The translations under genes and the position numbers were made by a program. The notes below the pieces were generated by a model. The model had not been told where the DNA came from. It worked only from the letters and a program-made list of their open reading frames with translations, and did no database searches. 64,000 bases of DNA from positions 62,001-126,000 of the forward strand of contig NZ_FOTS01000001.1 in assembly GCF_900114615.1 (NCBI RefSeq), in the 5' to 3' direction. Shown here piece after piece: positions 5,361 to 55,238 of the stretch (the stretch's first letter is position 1; each line of letters starts with the position of its first letter). The stretch is from Pelosinus propionicus DSM 13327. GTDB lineage: Bacteria; Bacillota; Negativicutes; DSM-13327.

Positions 5361-5389
5361 TGTAATAGATAATCTAGCGTAAATACATT

Positions 5390-5450
5390 GCTGGCTGGTT
5401 TGAGAATCAGAGGCTGTATCCCATTTATTTTGGGATGCAGCTTTTTTTAT
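5390..5450 (+). promoter_or_regulatory. Leader element copy 3
   Basis: GCU-GG-CUGG, loop UUUGAGAA, UCAG-A-GGC (5390-5414). The terminator pairs AGGCTGTATCCCA with TTGGGATGCAGCTT, followed by seven T. It precedes the MetQ-like lipoprotein gene. Confidence 0.85.
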
Positions 5451-6495: not shown

Positions 6496-6565
6496 ACCGA
6501 CAGGATAAACAGGAATGAGCAAAGACATTAACTAAACGGGTTGAATAAAAGTTGAGTTGTGAGCA

Positions 6566-6624
6566 ACTGACTAGTTATTTACTAGAGGCTGCGTTCCATA
6601 CAGTTGGAATGCAGCCGTTTTAAT
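6566..6624 (+). promoter_or_regulatory. Leader element copy 4
   Basis: ACU-GA-CUAG, loop UUAUUUA, CUAG-A-GGC (hairpin region 6566-6590). The terminator pairs GGCTGCGTTCCA with TGGAATGCAGCC (6587-6616), followed by GTTTTAATTT. No good promoter is visible just upstream, so it may be reached from a weak site near 6417 or by read-through. It controls DK pair 2. Confidence 0.8.
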
Positions 6625-10532: not shown

Positions 10533-10592
10533 CAAAAAAAGGCTATGTAGATAGGAGTATCTACATAGCCTTCAGTTTACCTACTGATCAGC
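10533..10592 (-). promoter_or_regulatory. Leader element copy 6 (minus strand)
   Basis: On the minus strand: GCU-GA-UCAG, loop UAGGUAAA, CUGA-A-GGC (10592 down to 10568). The terminator pairs the 12-base arms at 10570-10559 and 10552-10541 perfectly, followed by a run of U (10540-10533). It controls the nifH-like gene. Confidence 0.88.
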
Positions 10593-10666
10593 GCTACCAA
10601 ATGAGTTGCTAAATTAGAGATACTAATTTTAACAACTGGTAAATAATGATTATTCTTTCAAACAGA

Positions 10667-10807: not shown

Positions 10808-10885
10808 CCTATCTCTGCCAGAATATGGCAGATAGGAACTGGTCAGCTAATAAACTGAAGGTTAAAGAATTATTTCTTTGGCCTT
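10808..10885 (+). promoter_or_regulatory. Leader element copy 5, with an extra upstream hairpin
   Basis: ACU-GG-UCAG, loop CUAAUAAA, CUGA-A-GGU (10837-10863 with flanking A/T pairs). The terminator pairs AAGGTTAAAGAA with TTCTTTGGCCTT, followed by T6. Uniquely, a separate stem (10808-10820 with 10826-10836, two bases unpaired) abuts the element on its 5' side. It controls DK pair 3. Confidence 0.85.
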
Positions 10886-10981
10886 TTTTCTTTGTACAGA
10901 GTAAATAGGCTGTATTAAATCCAAAGAAATATTTCATGTATTCATGATTAGTTTATTAAAAATGACAAGGGGTTGAATTTT

Positions 10982-22276: not shown

Positions 22277-22284
22277 TGTTATAA

Positions 22285-22350
22285 GACTGATTAGAAAACT
22301 AAAGGTCAAAATAAATTTGGTTACGACCAAGTTTGCTTTGATCTTTTTTT
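22285..22350 (+). promoter_or_regulatory. Leader element copy 9
   Basis: GACU-GA-UUAG, loop AAAA, CUAA-A-GGUC (22285-22307). Both inner and outer stems differ from the common form yet pair fully. The terminator pairs AAGGTCAAA with TTTGATCTT around an internal hairpin with a TACG loop, then T7. Confidence 0.88.
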
Positions 22351-23860: not shown

Positions 23861-23892
23861 TTATTTAAATTTTATAAAGTAGCGTTGTGTAA

Positions 23893-23955
23893 GCTGGCTG
23901 TATGAAACAACAGAGGCTTCGAGCAAAATGTGTATTTTGCTCGAAGCCTCTTTAT
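23893..23955 (+). promoter_or_regulatory. Leader element copy 10
   Basis: GCU-GG-CUGU, loop AUGAAACA, ACAG-A-GGC (23893-23917). The terminator is a very long perfect stem: AGAGGCTTCGAGCAAAAT pairs with ATTTTGCTCGAAGCCTCT, followed by a T-rich run. It controls DK pair 5. Confidence 0.88.
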
Positions 23956-26762: not shown

Positions 26763-26796
26763 GAATTGATATCATGAATAAATAGCATTAGAAGCA

Positions 26797-26860
26797 ACTG
26801 ACTAGGTGATGAACTAGAGGCTGTATTTCCCAGGTAATTTGGAATGCAGTCTTTTTGTTA
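26797..26860 (+). promoter_or_regulatory. Leader element copy 11
   Basis: ACU-GA-CUAG, loop GUGAUGAA, CUAG-A-GGC (26797-26821), nearly the same as copy 4. The terminator pairs GGCTGTATTTCC with GGAATGCAGTC, then T5. It lies between DK5 and the TrmO-like gene. No clear own promoter was found, so it may act on read-through from DK5. Confidence 0.8.
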
Positions 26861-29705: not shown

Positions 29706-29728
29706 AGCAAGTAATTCAATATCTTTTT

Positions 29729-29788
29729 GCTGATCAGACAACTGAAGGCTAAGGAATTCCCTAACAGGGATTCTTTAGCCTTTTTATT
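29729..29788 (+). promoter_or_regulatory. Leader element copy 13
   Basis: GCU-GA-UCAG, loop ACAA, CUGA-A-GGC (29729-29749): the most compact copy. The terminator pairs AAGGCTAAGGAAT with ATTCTTTAGCCTT, then T5. It controls the YeiH permease. Confidence 0.88.
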
Positions 29789-31575: not shown

Positions 31576-31601
31576 AATTAAAAGAGTAACTTTATATTAT
31601 T

Positions 31602-31675
31602 GCTGATTAGTTATTGAACTAAAGGCTGTGGAAGCATTTCTATTTTAGAAGTGTTTTCCCCAGCCTTTTTATTTT
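31602..31675 (+). promoter_or_regulatory. Leader element copy 14
   Basis: GCU-GA-UUAG, loop UUAUUGAA, CUAA-A-GGC (31602-31626). The terminator pairs AAGGCTGTGGAA with TTCCCCAGCCTT, then T5. It controls the second nifH-like gene. Confidence 0.87.
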
Positions 31676-32572: not shown

Positions 32573-32617
32573 TCCATAGATACAATTGAAAATAGTAAAC
32601 TTGTCAGGAAACTAACA

Positions 32618-32680
32618 AGCTGGTCAGATAAACTGAAGGCTACAGAAATGATTTATTTCTGTAGCCTTCAGTCTAAGAAA
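32618..32680 (+). promoter_or_regulatory. Leader element copy 15
   Basis: GCU-GG-UCAG, loop AUAAA, CUGA-A-GGC (32619-32640). The competing hairpin ACTGAAGGCTACAGAAA with TTTCTGTAGCCTTCAGT is strong but is followed by CTAAGAAA, not a T run. It may be a weaker terminator or a pause/processing site between nifH2 and nifB. Confidence 0.8.
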
Positions 32681-34063: not shown

Positions 34064-34849
34064 ATGAAGGATAACTTACAAGCACTTTCTATCAAACTCG
34101 TTGATTTCTCTGGTATTATTACTTTTTTTCTGCTATGGGAAATTCTACCCCGTATCGGAGTAGTAGATGGGCAGTTTATTCCCCCCATATCAGAAGTACT
34201 AGTAGCTTTGTGGATACTGGCTTCTGATGGTTCTTTGTTTATTCATATTGCTGCCAGTTTACAGCGAACAGTTATTGGCTTGATTCTTGCTATTGTTGTT
34301 GCCGTTCCTATGGGATTTATATTAGGAGGGGTATTTCCAGCGCTTTCAAGGCAACTCAGGCCATTGTTTCGCCTATTTGGTCAAATTAATGGTTTTTCTT
34401 TATTTCCTGTTTTTATGTTGTTCTTTGGAATTGGAGAAAGTGCGAAAGTAAGTATTATTTTCTGGTCTACCCTTTGGCCGGTACTTTTTACTACGATTTC
34501 TGGCGTTCAGCAAGTAGATCCCTTATATATAAAAAGTGCACGTTCTATCGGTGCGAATAAATTCATCATCTTTCGTAAGGTCCTTCTGCCGGGAGCGGCG
34601 CCTGTTATTTTTACTGGTGTGCGTACTGGGGCAACCATTGCATTCCTTTTACTTATGGCGGCTGAAGTGATTGGAGCCAGTGCTGGTTTAGGCTGGCTAA
34701 TTCATAACTCGGCAATGAATAATATTATTCCCAGGCTATTTGCTGGTGTTATTACGATTGCAGTGCTAGGGGTATTTATCACCTATCTGATTGATTATGT
34801 GGAAGAGAGTGTTGTGGATTGGAAGCAGCATACAGGAAAAGAGAATTGA
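34064..34849 (+). CDS. ABC importer permease, NrtB/SsuC/TauC type (1)
   Basis: 261 residues with about six membrane helices. The binding-protein-dependent transport motif is visible around KSARSIGANKFIIFRKVLLPGAAP (the EAA loop that meets the ATPase). The family imports nitrate, sulfonates, taurine and similar anions. AAGGAGAAGG precedes the ATG. It follows nifB by 30 bases and a second permease follows by about 50 bases, so both lie in the nifB transcript unless a start was missed. Confidence 0.87.
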   Translation: MKDNLQALSIKLVDFSGIITFFLLWEILPRIGVVDGQFIPPISEVLVALWILASDGSLFIHIAASLQRTVIGLILAIVVAVPMGFILGGVFPALSRQLRPLFRLFGQINGFSLFPVFMLFFGIGESAKVSIIFWSTLWPVLFTTISGVQQVDPLYIKSARSIGANKFIIFRKVLLPGAAPVIFTGVRTGATIAFLLLMAAEVIGASAGLGWLIHNSAMNNIIPRLFAGVITIAVLGVFITYLIDYVEESVVDWKQHTGKEN

Positions 34850-34901
34850 GTTTTTTAAAGGGTGTATCGCTAACTATTTATATTTAGAAAGGAGAGGGAG
34901 T

Positions 34902-35741
34902 ATGGAAATGGTGTTAGATAAAGCTACAGTAAGCGGTAATGAAAAGAAACCAAATATATTTCGCAAGGTTTTAAATAAGGTTCTAGAGATTTTGCATAGT
35001 GGGATATCCATTATTATCTTTCTGGTGCTTTGGGAGATCGCCCCTCGTGCTGGCTGGGTTCCAGAAACGTTCATTACACCGCCCACCCTTGTGTTAAGTA
35101 CACTTTGGGAGTTACTGATAACCGGGGTTATGACCAAACATATTGAAACCAGTATGTTTAGGGCTGTTATTGGCTTTATACTTGCTGCTATTGTCGGTGT
35201 TCCATTAGGATTTTTTCTAGGAGGCTGGTTTACATTATTTGAACGTATCGTAACTCCTGTGCTACGTTTGTTAAATGCGGTGAATCCATTCTCGCTGTTT
35301 CCTGTATTCATTTTATTGTTTGGTATTGGTGAAATATCCAAAGTCGCGATGATTTTCTGGGTGTGCTTGTGGCCAATTATGCTTAATACGACCACAGGAG
35401 TTAAAAATGTGGATCGTTTATTGCTTAAATCTGCTCGCTCCATGGGCGTAACGGGAAAGGAGCTGTTCTTCAAGGTTGTGTTGTTGGCTGCGTTACCGAG
35501 CATTTTTCATGGCTTAAAAACCAGTTGTGCTACTGCTTTTTTTATGCTGATCGCTGCTGAAATGATTGGCGCAAGCAGTGGATTAGGCTGGTTAGTATTT
35601 AATGCTCAGACTAATTATCAAATTCCTAAATTATTTGCGACTACCGTTACGATTTCGATATTAGGATTATCTCTAAATTATTTATTTACAGTATTGGAAG
35701 GGAGGCTGCTTAGTTGGCAAGAACGTCCTGCGGAATATTAA
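34902..35741 (+). CDS. ABC importer permease, NrtB/SsuC/TauC type (2)
   Basis: 279 residues from ATG 34902 after AAAGGAGAGGG; an earlier in-frame ATG lacks such a site. Clearly a paralogue of the preceding permease (shared LWEI.PR, VPLGFFLGG, FSLFPVFILLFGIGE, KSARSMGVTGKELFFKVVL). The two probably form a heterodimer or belong to two importers sharing one ATPase. No ATPase follows; the likely one is at 42990. Confidence 0.87.
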   Translation: MEMVLDKATVSGNEKKPNIFRKVLNKVLEILHSGISIIIFLVLWEIAPRAGWVPETFITPPTLVLSTLWELLITGVMTKHIETSMFRAVIGFILAAIVGVPLGFFLGGWFTLFERIVTPVLRLLNAVNPFSLFPVFILLFGIGEISKVAMIFWVCLWPIMLNTTTGVKNVDRLLLKSARSMGVTGKELFFKVVLLAALPSIFHGLKTSCATAFFMLIAAEMIGASSGLGWLVFNAQTNYQIPKLFATTVTISILGLSLNYLFTVLEGRLLSWQERPAEY

Positions 35742-35800
35742 AAGGCAAATGAGTGAATGTGACCTGCGTAGTTAATGAAAAAGTTGTAAGGGGAATGAAG

Positions 35801-36841
35801 ATGGCTGAGAAAAAAACAATTAAAAAAATTCTGGGAGGAATTATTGGCCTGGCAGTTATAGGTCTTGTTGCTTATGGTGCTAATCTTGGCAATAAACATG
35901 CAGCTGCTGGTAATGAGGCGACTGCTGCATCTAATGAAGGTTTGTTCCCGATTCGTACTATTTCTCAAACTGCTTGCGGCTCTACACCTTGGATTGTTAC
36001 TGACCAATTAGGTTTTTTTAAAGAAGAAGGCTTACAAGTCGTTTATACCGGTGATACCCAACCCAATCAAATTGTTCCATCCATTTTAAATGGTTCAAAT
36101 GATGTAAGCGGTGCTCATCCCAACACTCTTGCGGTTGCTATAGCTGGCGGAGCTAAAATAAAGGGAGTTGTACGAGCTGGTATCGATCCGACACCGGATA
36201 AAGATCCGAAATTGCGCCATATGAACTGGTACATCAATCCAAATGTAAATCCTGACATTCATACTTTTGCAGACTTAAACAAGTTACCAGGACAGGTCAA
36301 ATTTTCATTAATTACGCCAAATCAATGCTCTGATTTTTTAGGCAATAGTATTGCTGATAAAAATAATGTTTCTAGAAGTAAAATTGAATGGATAACGATG
36401 CCTGATGTTCAAGCCGTGCAGGCTCTAAAACAAGGATTAGTAACCGTGGCTGGTGTGCATCCTCCTTTCTATAAATCAATGGAAGATGCAGGTATGGTTA
36501 AAATTGCTGATAGTCTGGATGCTGGTGTAGGTGTGGCAGGTGGTATCGGTTATTACTATTTCACTACAGATTTTATTGAGAAGCATCCAGATATTATTAA
36601 GAAATTTGCCAGAGCGATTGCTAAAGGACAAAAATGGGCTAATGATCATCCGGAAGAAGCCCGTAAAATGACAGAAGACTGGATCCATGTGCCTGTTAAT
36701 GCTACTCATTATTATGCCACGGATACTAAAATTATTGAATCTGAGATTGATCCTTGGCTTAAAGATTTGGAAAATTCGGGTGTACTTCCTAAAGGTAAAA
36801 TTAAACCTTCGGATATGGTTATTCATACTTTCGACAATTAA
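35801..36841 (+). CDS. Substrate-binding protein, NrtA/SsuA-like (copy 1)
   Basis: 346 residues from ATG 35801 after AAGGGG; the start agrees with copy 2. N-terminal hydrophobic helix (ILGGIIGLAVIGLVAYGA) without a lipobox cysteine, so it is probably anchored or secreted. Then a type-2 periplasmic fold (STPWIVTDQLGFFKEEGLQVVYTGDTQPNQIVPSILNGSNDV). Two cysteines, in QTACGSTPW and PNQCSDF, are conserved in copy 2. The ligand is unknown; the family binds nitrate, sulfonates and thiamin precursors. Confidence 0.87.
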   Translation: MAEKKTIKKILGGIIGLAVIGLVAYGANLGNKHAAAGNEATAASNEGLFPIRTISQTACGSTPWIVTDQLGFFKEEGLQVVYTGDTQPNQIVPSILNGSNDVSGAHPNTLAVAIAGGAKIKGVVRAGIDPTPDKDPKLRHMNWYINPNVNPDIHTFADLNKLPGQVKFSLITPNQCSDFLGNSIADKNNVSRSKIEWITMPDVQAVQALKQGLVTVAGVHPPFYKSMEDAGMVKIADSLDAGVGVAGGIGYYYFTTDFIEKHPDIIKKFARAIAKGQKWANDHPEEARKMTEDWIHVPVNATHYYATDTKIIESEIDPWLKDLENSGVLPKGKIKPSDMVIHTFDN

Positions 36842-36884
36842 AGTTAGTAGTAATTTCTTTGTTCTATAAAAGGAGGCAATATAA

Positions 36885-37925
36885 ATGGCTGATAAAAAGA
36901 CGATAAAAAAAATTATCGCTGGTGTTTTAAGTTTAGCTGTGGTAGGTCTTGTTGCTTACGGTGCTAATCTAGGTAATAAGCATGCTGCTGCTGGTAAGGA
37001 ATCCGCCGTCGCTGCTGATGGCGGATTGTATCCGATTCGTACGGTTTCTCAGACAGCTTGCAGCTCTACTCCATGGGTTGTAACCGACCAATTGGGCTTT
37101 TTCAAAGAAGAAGGTTTACAAGTCGTTTATACTGGTGATACTCAACCGAATCAAATTGTTCCATCTATTTTAAATGGTTCGAATGATGTAAGCACTGCTC
37201 ACCCTAATAATCTTGCAGTTGCTATAGCTGGCGGGGCTAAAATAAAAGGAGTTGTACGAGCTGGTATCGATCCGACACCGGATAAAGATCCGAAACTGCG
37301 TCATATGAACTGGTACATCAATCCAAATGTAAATCCTGACATTCATACTTTTGCAGACTTAAACAAGTTACCAGGACAGGTCAAATTTTCATTAATTACG
37401 CCAAACCAATGCTCTGATTTTTTAGGCAATAGTATTGCTGATAAAAATAATGTTCCTAGAAGTAAAATTGAATGGGTAACGATGCCTGATGTTCAAGCAG
37501 TGCAGGCTCTAAAACAAGGACTCGTAACAGTGGCTGGTGTGCATCCTCCTTTTTATAAATCAATGGAAGATGCGGGTATGGTTAAAATTGCTGATAGTCT
37601 GGATGCTGGTGTAGGTATAGCAGGAGGTATTGGTTATTACTATTTCACTACTGACTTTATTGAGAAACATCCAGATATAATCAAGAAATTTGCCAGAGCC
37701 ATTGCCAAAGGACAAAGATGGGCGAATGATCATCCAGAAGAAGCCCGGAAAATGACAGAAGACTGGATCCATGTACCTGTTAATGCCACTCACTATTATG
37801 CTACGGATACTAAGATTGTTGAGTCAGAGATTGATCCTTGGCTTGCAGACTTAGAAAATACAGGTGTACTTCCTAAAGGTAAAATTAAGCCTTCGGACAT
37901 GGTTATTCATACTTTTGACAATTAG
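36885..37925 (+). CDS. Substrate-binding protein, NrtA/SsuA-like (copy 2)
   Basis: 346 residues; AAAGGAGG before ATG. Nearly identical to copy 1 over most of its length; in the middle (about codons 70-330) even the DNA matches almost base for base, while the signal region has drifted. This indicates a recent tandem duplication or ongoing gene conversion. Differences cluster at the N-terminus and in a few positions such as STAH versus SGAH and PRSKIEW versus SRSKIEW. Confidence 0.87.
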   Translation: MADKKTIKKIIAGVLSLAVVGLVAYGANLGNKHAAAGKESAVAADGGLYPIRTVSQTACSSTPWVVTDQLGFFKEEGLQVVYTGDTQPNQIVPSILNGSNDVSTAHPNNLAVAIAGGAKIKGVVRAGIDPTPDKDPKLRHMNWYINPNVNPDIHTFADLNKLPGQVKFSLITPNQCSDFLGNSIADKNNVPRSKIEWVTMPDVQAVQALKQGLVTVAGVHPPFYKSMEDAGMVKIADSLDAGVGIAGGIGYYYFTTDFIEKHPDIIKKFARAIAKGQRWANDHPEEARKMTEDWIHVPVNATHYYATDTKIVESEIDPWLADLENTGVLPKGKIKPSDMVIHTFDN

Positions 37926-40639: not shown

Positions 40640-40708
40640 AAATAAGAAAAGGTCAGATTAAATTTTCCTCAGAAAATTTAATCTGACCTTTGGTTATACC
40701 AATCAGTC
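40640..40708 (-). promoter_or_regulatory. Leader element copy 16 (minus strand)
   Basis: On the minus strand: GACU-GA-UUGG, loop UAUAA, CCAA-A-GGUC (40708 down to 40685). The UUGG/CCAA inner stem is found in no other copy and is strong covariation evidence. The terminator pairs AAGGTCAGATTAAATTTTC with its complement, then U. It controls the DUF4418/ABC operon. Confidence 0.9.
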
Positions 40709-40788
40709 GTGTAGATAGCTTAAGTTTTAATGCTACGATATCATAACTTTTTAGTTTAATTGGTGTTCGTTCTAGTTCTCTTTGTCAT

Positions 40789-41103: not shown

Positions 41104-41940
41104 ATGAATATGAAAAGAATGAAATGGATCTCTGCATTATGTACCACTCTCTTCATTGGTGTATTTGAATTTGTACGGCATTATTTCTTGGATTTTATAT
41201 CGATGAGTTGGGGAAATCTATTGGTTGCTGTTGTGACTGGGATATTATTTTATATCTATTTTCATGGTATTTTTTCTCTTTTGGAAAATCTCTACTATAA
41301 ACTGCAAAAAGGGCAAGAAGAGAGGGCTGTTTTGCAAGAGCGAGATAGAATTGCTCGAGAATTACATGATAGTGTTTCTCAAGCTTTATTCTTTATGAAT
41401 GTTAAGGTAATGGAGATTGGTACGGCTCTTAAGCAGCAGCGTCAGCCCTTAGCAGAAGTAAAAGAATTGCAGGAGGCTATTAAATTTACCGATGCAGATA
41501 TACGGCAGCATATCTTTGCATTACAGAAAGTGACTCATGAGAATATTAATTTAGTGGATGTTATTCAAAACTATATTAATGTTTATAAAGAGCAAAATAA
41601 TATAAATGTGGACTTAGTGATAAGAGGTAATGGTAATAGTAGGTTAAATAACTATGTAAAATCCCAGTTGTTTCGTATTTTTCAGGAACTTTTATTTAAT
41701 ATTCGTAAGCACGCTGAAGCGAAGCAAGTGGATGTTAGTTTACTAGCGGATGAGCATCAATTTTCCATGATCATTTGTGATCATGGAAAGGGGTTTCCTA
41801 AAGAAGAATTAAACCCCAATAAAATGTCCTTTGGTTATAAAATGCTAAAAGATACTGCTTGCGCAATTGATGCTACATTGCAGATAGAAAGTATTTCAGG
41901 CAAGGGAACTACGGTAACTGTTAGCTTGGAATTAAAATAG
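41104..41940 (+). CDS. NarL-type sensor histidine kinase
   Basis: 278 residues. Two N-terminal membrane helices (about 10-55) with almost no external domain, so it probably senses within or near the membrane. HisKA_3 motif ERDRIARELHDSVSQAL with H88, then a coiled region and an HATPase domain (NIRKHAEAKQVDVSL, DHGKGFP, GKGTTVTVSL). It phosphorylates the response regulator 12 bases downstream. It is one of the two regulatory proteins in the accessory region and has no leader copy itself. Confidence 0.9.
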   Translation: MNMKRMKWISALCTTLFIGVFEFVRHYFLDFISMSWGNLLVAVVTGILFYIYFHGIFSLLENLYYKLQKGQEERAVLQERDRIARELHDSVSQALFFMNVKVMEIGTALKQQRQPLAEVKELQEAIKFTDADIRQHIFALQKVTHENINLVDVIQNYINVYKEQNNINVDLVIRGNGNSRLNNYVKSQLFRIFQELLFNIRKHAEAKQVDVSLLADEHQFSMIICDHGKGFPKEELNPNKMSFGYKMLKDTACAIDATLQIESISGKGTTVTVSLELK

Positions 41941-41952
41941 GAGGCTAAGTGA

Positions 41953-42588
41953 ATGACGATTAAGGTGTTAGTGGTAGATGATCACTTATTGTCCCGTAAA
42001 GGTATTATCAGTATTCTTTCATCTCATGCTATGTTTGAGATTATCGGGGAAGCAACGAATGGTCAAGAAGCTTTAGCAAAAGCAAAAGAGCTTATGCCAG
42101 ACCTTATTTTGATGGATATTCGAATGCCTGGTGGCAGTGGTTTAGAAGCTACAAGGCTGATTAAGGAAGACATGCCATATGTAAAAATTGTAATTTTAAG
42201 TGTATCTGATGATGTACAGGATTTTTTTGAGGCTATAAAGAAAGGTGCTCAGGGTTATTTATTAAAAAATATGGAGCCTGAATATTGGTTAGATTATATT
42301 ATCAGTATTGTCCAGGGAGAAGCACCCATTTCCCGAGAAGTTGCTAGTAAAATACTCCAGGAATTTTCGATTCAAAAGACGGATGCATCAGGGAGTAAAT
42401 TATCAGAAAGAGAAAAGGAAGTACTCCAATTAGTTAGTCAGGGCCTAGGAAATAAAGAGATAGGGAAAGTACTTTTCATTACAGAGAGTACTGTCAAAAA
42501 TCATTTGCGTAATATTTTAGATAAGCTTCATTTACAAAATCGTATGCAGCTTATTGCTTTTGCTTATAAAAATGGCTTGATTTCATAG
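41953..42588 (+). CDS. NarL/FixJ-type response regulator
   Basis: 211 residues. Receiver domain with phospho-acceptor D55 (LILMDIRMPG), then a LuxR-type helix-turn-helix (LSEREKEVLQLVSQGLGNKEIG ... TVKNHLRNIL). It should bind DNA. There is no ANTAR or other RNA-binding domain, so it is not the obvious reader of the leader elements, but it could control the promoters of the regulon or the gene for the antiterminator. Confidence 0.9.
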   Translation: MTIKVLVVDDHLLSRKGIISILSSHAMFEIIGEATNGQEALAKAKELMPDLILMDIRMPGGSGLEATRLIKEDMPYVKIVILSVSDDVQDFFEAIKKGAQGYLLKNMEPEYWLDYIISIVQGEAPISREVASKILQEFSIQKTDASGSKLSEREKEVLQLVSQGLGNKEIGKVLFITESTVKNHLRNILDKLHLQNRMQLIAFAYKNGLIS

Positions 42589-42659: not shown

Positions 42660-42687
42660 TTGACAAATCAGTGCAAAACATTATAAT
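42660..42687 (+). promoter_or_regulatory. Promoter of the ABC ATPase gene
   Basis: TTGACA 42660-42665, a 16-base spacer, TATAAT 42682-42687. About 100 transcribed bases precede the first of two leader copies. Confidence 0.78.
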
Positions 42688-42793
42688 AGAAGAAAAGTAA
42701 CGATTAGCAGTAATTAATTTGCGGGTTGCAATAAATTTAAAGTTATCTGTTCAGAGCATTGTAACGCAAATAATGGCAAATCAATAATGATAT

Positions 42794-42866
42794 AGCTGAT
42801 CAGTAGTATATGCTGAAGGTAAAGAAGTGATTACGATACGGTAAATCATTCTTTGCCTTTTTTAAA
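42794..42866 (+). promoter_or_regulatory. Leader element copy 17a (first of a tandem pair)
   Basis: GCU-GA-UCAG, loop UAGUAUAUG, CUGA-A-GGU (42795-42819). The terminator pairs AAGGTAAAGAA with TTCTTTGCCTT (inner GTGATT/AATCAT), then T. Confidence 0.85.
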
Positions 42867-42899
42867 TAATTAAATTGCTCTATTAAGAAGCAGCCACTT

Positions 42900-42957
42900 G
42901 CCGACTATAAAAAAAGTAGAGGTCAAGTTCCTAACTTAGGAACTTGACCTTTTTTAT
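42900..42957 (+). promoter_or_regulatory. Leader element copy 17b (second of a tandem pair)
   Basis: GCC-GA-CUAU, loop of seven A, GUAG-A-GGU (42900-42923). The only copy with C before the GA, and with a CUAU/GUAG stem that still pairs. The terminator pairs AGGTCAAGTTCCTAA with TTAGGAACTTGACCT, then T6. Confidence 0.85.
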
Positions 42958-42989
42958 ATAAAACCATAAATATGAGGAGTGAAAAACAC

Positions 42990-43877
42990 ATGTCAGAGAA
43001 TAAAATACCATTTGTAACATCAGTGCAGGAAAAAAGTGATAAAATTGTTGCTCGTAATATTCATCAAGTCTATAAAATTAAACAGCAGGATAGTGATAGC
43101 CTGACGAACTTTGAGGCAATTAAACAATTAAATCTTACTGTAAAGCAGGGTGAATTCCTGGCAATTGTAGGACCAAGTGGCTGCGGAAAATCAACATTTC
43201 TCGATATGATTGCTGGATTGGCAAAGCCTAGCTCAGGAGAAATATTCATTGATAATAGAAAAATTACTGGTCCGGCATTAGATCGAGGGATTGTATTGCA
43301 AGGTTATGCGTTATTTCCTTGGCGGACGGTACGAAAAAACGTAGAGTTTGGTTTAGAGATAAAAAAAATTCCTGAGAAAGATCGTAAGGATATTAGTCAG
43401 CGATATATTGAATTAGTAGGATTAAAAAACTTTGAAGAGCGCTATCCTCATGAATTATCAGGCGGTATGAAACAACGTGTAGCCATCGCTAGGGCGCTGG
43501 CATATGATCCGGAAGTATTGCTGATGGATGAGCCTTTTGCTGCTGTAGATGCACAAACTAGGGAAACTCTGCAGGAAGAATTATTGCGTATTTGGGAACA
43601 AACCCAAAAAACCATTGTGTTTGTTACTCATGGTATTGATGAAGCGGTATTTTTAGCTGATCGGGTTGCGGTTATGACTACAAATCCAGGTACAATTAAA
43701 GATATTATTACGATTAATTTACCAAGACCGCGAGATGGTATACGCTCTTCAGCTGAATTTGGCTGGGCAAGACATAAAATCTGGGAATTATTGCAGAATG
43801 ATCCATCTGCTGCACATAAGATAAAATCAGAAAAACAAGATATTGCAGATTTTATATCACCATCAGCAGCACTATAA
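42990..43877 (+). CDS. ABC importer ATPase, NrtD/SsuB/TauB type
   Basis: 295 residues from ATG 42990 after GAGGAGTG. Walker [11 protein letters not shown]-loop region [13 protein letters not shown], signature LSGGMKQR, Walker [13 protein letters not shown]. The C-terminus has the family extension seen in nitrate/sulfonate ATPases. It most likely energises the two permeases and two binding proteins at 34.0-37.9 kb, which lack their own ATPase. Control by two leaders in series may set its level separately from those genes. Confidence 0.88.
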
Positions 43878-44631: not shown

Positions 44632-44754
44632 AGAATACACCTCCCAAGAAAAAATATATTCATTTTAAAAAAAGATAGAACTAGATTTACGAATAGACAG
44701 AATAGTGGTAATTTGACTTTCAACATAGGGTGGGATATAATATTATACAAGTCC

Positions 44755-44995
44755 TAAGATACAGAGTAGTAGGCTTTATTTATGGTACAGAAAGTTGGCG
44801 GATGATGCGAGCCAGCCCTTAAATTTGCTGAACTCACTGTGGAGGATCAGTTATGAATTAATAATAGCTGACGCTTGATTAGTGTTAACAATCATTGAGA
44901 GGATGGCAACAGCTGTCAATCAGGGTGGTATCGCGGGTGTATATAACTCGTCCCTGGCTAATAAGCCAAGGGGCGGTTTTTTATTTTTTTATAAA
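44755..44995 (+). promoter_or_regulatory. T-box leader of leuS
   Basis: The conserved T-box sequence AGGGTGGTATCGCGGGT lies at 44922-44938. The terminator follows (CGTCCCTGGCT with AGCCAAGGGGCG, then a long T run). Upstream, GAACTC near 44830 could present the leucine codon CTC as specifier. Uncharged tRNA-Leu would favour antitermination. The 5' limit is approximate. Confidence 0.88.
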
Positions 44996-50927: not shown

Positions 50928-50965
50928 CTATATAAAGTTATATATCTTAAAAAAATAATGATTAT

Positions 50966-51022
50966 GGTTGATCAGTTGAGCTGAAGACCAGAGATGTTTC
51001 TATACATTTCTGGTCTTTTTTG
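50966..51022 (+). promoter_or_regulatory. Leader element copy 18
   Basis: GGUU-GA-UCAG, loop UUGAG, CUGA-A-GACC (50966-50989). The terminator pairs AAGACCAGA with TCTGGTCTT, then T6. It controls the ABC importer operon at 51.1-53.9 kb. Confidence 0.88.
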
Positions 51023-54131: not shown

Positions 54132-54149
54132 GTTTTAAACATAATAATT

Positions 54150-54213
54150 GCTGATCAGGATAACTGAAGGCTAAAAGTATCTCTATAACGGAGATTCTTT
54201 TAGCTTTTTTTAT
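54150..54213 (+). promoter_or_regulatory. Leader element copy 20a (first of a tandem pair)
   Basis: GCU-GA-UCAG, loop GAUAA, CUGA-A-GGC (54150-54171). The terminator pairs AAGGCTAAAAG with CTTTTAGCTTT around GTATCTC/GGAGATT, then T7. Confidence 0.88.
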
Positions 54214-54219
54214 ATACTA

Positions 54220-54279
54220 AGCTGACTGGATAACCAGAGGCTGGCTTCTTTCGTAAAAGCGAAGAAACCAGCCTTTTTA
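54220..54279 (+). promoter_or_regulatory. Leader element copy 20b (second of a tandem pair)
   Basis: GCU-GA-CUGG, loop AUAA, CCAG-A-GGC (54221-54241). The terminator pairs AGGCTGGCTTCTT with AAGAAACCAGCCT, then T5. It begins directly after the U run of copy 20a. Confidence 0.88.
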
Positions 54280-54298
54280 ATTTTAAGGAGGTGAGAGA

Positions 54299-54633: not shown

Positions 54634-55023
54634 GTGCAGTCCTGTTCCGATGCGAAGAATAATGTGGCAAATTTAAGAGGGGCAATTAAACCATTGCCGT
54701 CTCAAGTGTTTGATATTATTGAGCATTTTTTATTAAACGTTCAATATGGTCACTTAATTTTAATGATACAAGATGGATTTGTTGTTAAAATAGATAAAAT
54801 TGAAAAGTTTATGATCTCAGCTAAAAGTAGAGAGAGCAGTTTTTTAATAAAGGAAAAAACAACGAAAAAACATCCTATGCAAATGAAAATTTTATCTGAT
54901 TTACAAAGTATACGATACGGACAATTGGTCATTCATGTGAATAATGGGCAAGTGGGACAAATTGAAAAGACTGAAAAAAGGCGTATTGACGAGCTAGAAG
55001 GACTGTATGGTGATGGCATATGA
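54634..55023 (+). CDS. Tandem YezD-like (DUF2292) protein
   Basis: 129 residues from GTG 54634 after AAAGGAGGT. It contains two copies of the YezD-like unit: QYGHLILMIQDGFVVKIDKIEKF (about residues 37-59) and RYGQLVIHVNNGQVGQIEKTEKRR (about 93-116). Usual YezD proteins have one unit of about 50 residues and are often found with sulfur assimilation genes. A fused double form is unusual. Confidence 0.75.
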   Translation: MQSCSDAKNNVANLRGAIKPLPSQVFDIIEHFLLNVQYGHLILMIQDGFVVKIDKIEKFMISAKSRESSFLIKEKTTKKHPMQMKILSDLQSIRYGQLVIHVNNGQVGQIEKTEKRRIDELEGLYGDGI

Positions 55024-55127: not shown

Positions 55128-55179
55128 AAGATGAAAAGGTTATTGTTGTTGATAATTTGATAGATGCATTATTATCTTG

Positions 55180-55238
55180 GTTGATCAGACACACTGAAGA
55201 CTGGAGAGGCTCTTTGAGACATCTTCAGTCTTTTTTAT
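55180..55238 (+). promoter_or_regulatory. Leader element copy 21
   Basis: GUU-GA-UCAG, loop ACACA, CUGA-A-GAC (55180-55201). The terminator pairs AAGACTG with CAGTCTT around a larger loop, then T6. It is the last copy seen; none occurs downstream. Confidence 0.87.

Follow-up and report, generated by a model that had tools for sequence, protein, structure and literature searches.

Serial transcription attenuators before an orphan ABC ATPase gene in Pelosinus propionicus, probably antiterminated by a DUF2292 (YezD/OscA-like) protein

Two complete transcription attenuators, 17a and 17b, lie in series before an orphan ABC ATPase gene of Pelosinus propionicus DSM 13327, and they belong to a leader unit of which ~19 copies (17 at E<=0.001 by our covariance model R1) occur in the 64,000-nt stretch of DNA analysed here (the window). 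We consider it likely that these leaders are sulfur-responsive attenuators antiterminated by a small RNA-binding protein, most probably of the DUF2292 family. By default, the nascent RNA would form a strong terminator and transcription would end. Binding of a DUF2292/YezD/OscA family protein, the most likely candidate, to the GYYGA-stem-loop-A-RRY hairpin would block termination, since this hairpin uses nucleotides of the terminator 5' arm, and polymerase would then enter sulfur-acquisition genes, probably under sulfur scarcity. At 17a/17b, polymerase would have to pass both attenuators; leakage should then be lower and, if the read-through of the two sites multiplies, the response steeper.

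The anatomy of the tandem leader is directly visible. A sigma-A-type promoter (TTGACA-16-TATAAT, 12/12 match) is located at 42660-42687 on the + strand, like the leader elements and the gene behind it, and is also present in two other Pelosinus species (G051 and G061). The antiterminator hairpin of 17a, the predicted protein-binding site, spans 42795-42820 and reads GCTGA-TCAG-TAGTATATG-CTGA-A-GGT, and it has its 3' side in common with the terminator at 42815-42863 including the T run (stem 42815-42860). In 17b, the antiterminator extends over 42896-42928 and comprises a core at 42900-42923, which reads GCCGA-CTAT-AAAAAAA-GTAG-A-GGT, and an additional ACUUG/CAAGU stem predicted by folding; its terminator is found at 42918-42957 including the T run (stem 42918-42952). 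R1 scores both within the window (51.8 bits, E 2.6e-11 for 17a; 49.9 bits, E 8e-11 for 17b), as copies that belonged to the training set of the model. The sequence-only reading had described two complete copies in series, each with its own terminator, and this is borne out by direct reading, folding and the covariance model. The promoter scan found no promoter-like site between the copies, and the single perfect promoter is the one upstream. With two complete attenuators in series and no visible promoter between them, polymerase starting at 42687 would meet two terminators, and double antitermination is consequently plausible. Default termination, read-through with the hairpin bound and two serial gates all follow from this anatomy.

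The gene under this control (42990-43877) encodes an orphan ABC ATPase of the sulfonate/taurine/nitrate type (SaoA/TauB/NtrD-like). Its likely start is the ATG at 42990, with the RBS GAGGAG at 42974-42979 upstream and an alternative in-frame ATG at 42972, which gives a leader of ~300 nt from the promoter. No permease gene adjoins the ATPase gene. Conversely, an ATPase is missing from the permease/binding-protein genes at 34064-37925, which the orphan one plausibly serves. Genes for a histidine kinase and a LuxR-type response regulator (41104-42588) lie directly 5' of the leader promoter. A further stem, GTTGCAAT...ATTGTAAC, is found at 42727-42775 in the interval between promoter and 17a and is absent from the other leaders examined.

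The unit consists of G-Y-Y-G-A, a 4-bp stem with a loop of 4-9 nt, the stem return, an A and R-R-Y, the latter pairing with the first three bases; the same RRY opens a long terminator stem, which is followed by a T run. A strict pattern scan yielded 25 hairpins in the window, where simulated sequence gave 3-9; a terminator follows on the 3' side of almost every true one. In a structural alignment of 15 copies (A3), 99% of antiterminator cells are paired and 6/7 pairs covary, with changes on both sides, and the terminator reaches 98% paired cells with 6/8 pairs covarying; shifting the partners abolished the pairing signal of both. Alignment columns 26-28 are shared by the two helices, which are therefore mutually exclusive. 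Two covarying helices with shared nucleotides, the second one followed by a T run, are what generally characterizes an attenuator. The third antiterminator pair is U-G in 14 of the 15 copies and C-G in 17b. Copy 17b had earlier been taken for the most divergent one, but its C-G recurs before cysK and elsewhere.

Across 17 copies, the antiterminator amounts to -1 to -7 kcal/mol when forced, and the complete leaders reach -15 to -29 kcal/mol with the terminator formed. These energies suggest that termination is the default and that the hairpin requires a stabilising factor; the direction of control would then be from termination to read-through upon binding. A metabolite-sensing riboswitch would share the arrangement of leader and terminator upstream of metabolic genes. 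Such a sensor is nevertheless extremely unlikely, as the hairpin measures only 21-26 nt, with stem sequence and loop free to vary, and the conserved core of GA/A internal loop and U-G pair would offer a scant ligand pocket. Moreover, Rfam at gathering and permissive thresholds returned no family over the hairpins in the window. Its sole match in the window is a T-box leader at 44747-44958, which precedes the leucyl-tRNA synthetase gene.

Apart from 17a and 17b, R1 detected leader copies at 1918-1971 (32.3 bits), 2285-2338 (24.1 bits), 6564-6623 (35.1 bits), 22284-22350, 26795-26858 and 29727-29787 on the + strand and at 40644-40709 on the - strand. Further R1 copies precede an NlpA-type lipoprotein (5388-5449, +), nifH-like genes (10534-10594, -, and 31600-31672, +), a nitrogenase-like operon (10836-10890, +), nifB with ABC permeases (32617-32668, +), a taurine-type ABC operon (50965-51022, +), one of the taurine/sulfonate-type ABC targets, and a DUF1847 gene (55178-55237, +); the pattern scan added a copy before a nitrogenase-like gene (23891-23951, +). 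A second tandem pair, again found by R1, consists of leaders at 54148-54212 (63.1 bits) and 54219-54280, both on the + strand, and stands before DUF2325 and DUF2292 genes. The candidate trans-acting factor, a two-domain DUF2292 (YezD/OscA-like) protein, is encoded at 54634-55023 (+).

In the 5.4-Mb genome, 39 copies were found by R1 at E<=0.001. Outside the window, leaders precede cysK, two Cys/Met-metabolism PLP enzymes (cystathionine-type), a MetN-type ABC ATPase, amino-acid and sulfonate (NMT1) binding proteins, methyltransferase-like URO-D proteins and more nitrogenase-like genes. The genes behind the leaders are thus largely those of sulfur acquisition, and sulfur is the signal we infer. 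Nitrogenase-like enzymes of organosulfur use are known, e.g., methylthio-alkane reductase (PMC12552129) or those of isethionate assimilation in Rhodobacter (PMC11423573). If the proposed mechanism is true, the nitrogenase-like operons of the window would be tied to sulfur scavenging.

DUF2292 tracks the leader across genomes. In a survey of 200 genomes of the class, 63 were R1-positive and 59 of these contain DUF2292 (p 3e-28; genus level p 4e-12; both Fisher values are inflated by the relatedness of the genomes), while the four leader-positive genomes without it are three with single marginal matches and one that is 58% complete. Leader and DUF2292 are also concordant within the genus g5 (G079 vs. 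G003, G035 and G043) as well as within g40 (G078, G086 and G090 vs. G054) and g23 (G033 vs. G022). A sample of the phylum served as an independent test: outside the class, DUF2292 is present in 8 of 11 R1-positive genomes compared to 1.5 expected (p 9e-6), and in G232, G279, G287 and G387 the R1 match lies directly 3' of the DUF2292 gene. In Pelosinus, the main DUF2292 copy is flanked by a Cys/Met PLP-enzyme gene on one side and by leader-cysK on the other. Twenty DUF2292-positive genomes, mostly of one family, have no leader match at threshold, several of them featuring weaker hairpins. In the class family f11 (L199-L206), two-domain DUF2292 proteins are accompanied by few R1 matches and some weaker hairpins, e.g., ACTGACCAAAAAAATTGGAGGT.

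An alternative option would be the same attenuators with the hairpin bound by another protein, DUF2292 being a co-regulated sulfur gene. This would be in line with the genomic setting in Pelosinus, where two of the three or more DUF2292 paralogs sit downstream of leaders, and DUF2325 co-occurs with the leader, too. However, DUF2325 is less well correlated (48 of the 63 leader-positive genomes compared to 59 for DUF2292) and was rejected as factor on this basis. ANTAR proteins are encoded in 168 of the 200 genomes irrespective of the leader and gave no match in G019, which is 87% complete and has 17 leaders. In most distant loci, moreover, DUF2292 is located upstream of the hairpin and consequently is not the attenuated gene. 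We hence regard a different binding protein as unlikely and DUF2292 as the preferred candidate.

These distant loci emerged from a DUF2292 profile scan of contigs, in which the hairpin was found immediately 3' of the stop codon of DUF2292 in Lachnospiraceae, Lysinibacillus and Sporosarcina and in MAGs labelled Armatimonadota, Brocadiaceae and Deltaproteobacteria. It occurs at 30 of 61 loci compared to 44 of 3660 control windows (1.2%), a count that was based on end motifs only, with pairing then required, and in which many loci are from related Lachnospiraceae. The genes that follow encode SsuD, SsuA, Sat, MetQ, the sulfate-binding protein (sbp), NifB-like and nitrogenase-like proteins and CysH. 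Among the four plasmid records retrieved for OscA, only the one from Cytobacillus contains the hairpin. In Cytobacillus and Lysinibacillus (L229 2700-3230, L172 7801-8188), the order is S box, yezD, hairpin with terminator and then cysH or metQ, i.e., two different attenuators per operon; the S box is an Rfam match in Lysinibacillus and was recognized by eye in Cytobacillus. In the Brocadiaceae and Deltaproteobacteria MAGs (L190 7520-7570, L193 8186-8230), the hairpin stands shortly before the start codon and a terminator is not clear, which suggests translational control there.

The candidate partner matches DUF2292 (PF10055) above the Pfam cut-off and is found either as two fused domains or as two adjacent genes. 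For all five DUF2292 proteins searched, the best NCBIfam model was OscA (NF033785, 'sulfur starvation response protein OscA') with 25-39 bits, below the curated cut-off of 85; by sequence, they appear as relatives of OscA and not as filed members. The predicted fold is (alpha-beta-beta)x2 (pLDDT 72) with a conserved loose tail, EGLYGDGI. In a PDB fold search, this model had no match at E<=0.001, the best VIA Z being 4.2, and a fold family is therefore neither assigned nor excluded; no known RNA-binding structure was matched, and a PDB sequence search gave weak matches only. In previous work, oscA-sbp was described as one transcriptional unit overexpressed upon chromate exposure, and inactivated oscA led to Cr(VI) sensitivity, OscA being a small protein of unknown function (PMC2996968). 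The literature searched on YezD/DUF2292 and on sulfonate/sulfur leaders contained no description of a hairpin-DUF2292 system and no molecular function of OscA/YezD. For bacilli, Naville and Gautheret (PMC2965389) report a leader upstream of a sulfonate transporter for which they had no explanation; it may be the same element.

Taken over all groups, it appears reasonably probable that DUF2292/YezD/OscA proteins form an unrecognised family of small antiterminators that bind RNA and act via one conserved hairpin on sulfur-starvation genes in Negativicutes, Clostridia, Bacilli and MAGs of Armatimonadota, Brocadiales and Deltaproteobacteria, and that was expanded in Pelosinus to ~40 targets, some of them serial. 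If true, this would provide a function for OscA/YezD, a protein associated with sulfur starvation and with resistance to chromate, and an RNA element absent from Rfam would join the few known systems of protein-dependent antitermination.

Known systems offer close parallels. As for BglG/SacY/LicT and the RAT, a small hairpin, here predicted to be protein-bound, overlaps and blocks the terminator 5' arm; those proteins, however, carry a CAT RNA-binding domain, in contrast to the candidate DUF2292, and their targets differ from the leader with its single GA/A internal loop, free stem sequence and sulfur-gene targets. The BglG/SacY RAT hairpin is ~30 nt long and contains two asymmetric internal loops, whereas the covarying leader structure has one 2x1 internal loop. 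ANTAR proteins (NasR, EutV) likewise mediate protein-dependent antitermination via terminator-overlapping hairpins in Firmicutes. Their target RNA comprises a pair of hairpins, each with a six-base loop (A1, G4), whereas each leader unit has a single hairpin with a variable loop of 4-9 nt. An ANTAR system was rejected on loop size and distribution, the occurrence of ANTAR proteins being apparently independent of that of the leader. The leader system would work like the RAT and ANTAR systems but lacks the defining features of either RNA, and it is best called a form of protein-dependent antitermination. With Pseudomonas OscA (NF033785)/YezD it has the protein family, the association with sulfur starvation and the gene position directly 5' of sulfate/sulfonate uptake genes in common; the RNA partner is proposed here, and in Pelosinus the protein has two fused domains. 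SAM riboswitches (S box) and T-boxes also attenuate transcription of sulfur and amino-acid genes in the same bacteria but are different RNAs, as illustrated by the Lysinibacillus S box upstream of yezD and leader hairpin.

Serial leaders recur. Four pairs within 130 nt are present in the genome compared to ~0.02 expected by chance, the first member of one pair being weak (25 bits). Both 17a and 17b are retained in G051 and G061, and in G061 the changes preserve pairing (G-U to A-U in 17a, U-G to U-A in a terminator). In G005 and G036, a single leader precedes the orthologous ABC gene, and its AACUUG...CAAGUU sequence matches 17b; in G005, it sits within a nitrogenase-like/cysK operon, whose head leader (G005:C1:2964624) is similar to 17a, as is another at 3001301. 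Accordingly, 17b is the older intra-operon attenuator, to which 17a was added with a new promoter, possibly by loss of the intervening genes, and the tandem pair may be partly historical. The second copy might even be an evolutionary left-over without regulatory gain, for which this match of 17b speaks, as do four almost identical units in a row in G056, which resemble a recent repeat duplication. We consider this doubtful, as both copies have kept hairpin and terminator in three species with pair-preserving changes, the DUF2325 pair is retained across Pelosinus species and a pair with copies 73 nt apart exists in another genus.

The sequence-only reading had also raised an AND gate of two proteins. 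Such a gate could have 17a and 17b read by different DUF2292 paralogs. The paralogs are available, and 17b differs in its C-G pair and extended stem. Yet both copies agree with all others in their GA/A internal loop and layout, the C-G variant also occurs in single leaders, other tandem pairs show no consistent division into types and a second type of hairpin was not found; the AND gate is hence unsupported, not needed and very unlikely. The single, double and quadruple arrays of this leader that occur in nature lend themselves to testing how attenuators in series affect leakage and steepness. In the second pair of the window (54148-54280), the copies are 71 nt apart and retained across other Pelosinus species, and the similarly spaced pair of the other genus was found at locus L132. 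The four leaders of G056, a relative, are arranged in 147-nt units (contig C265, L230 319-822) and precede a gene for a 428-aa protein that is SLH-domain-like by eye.
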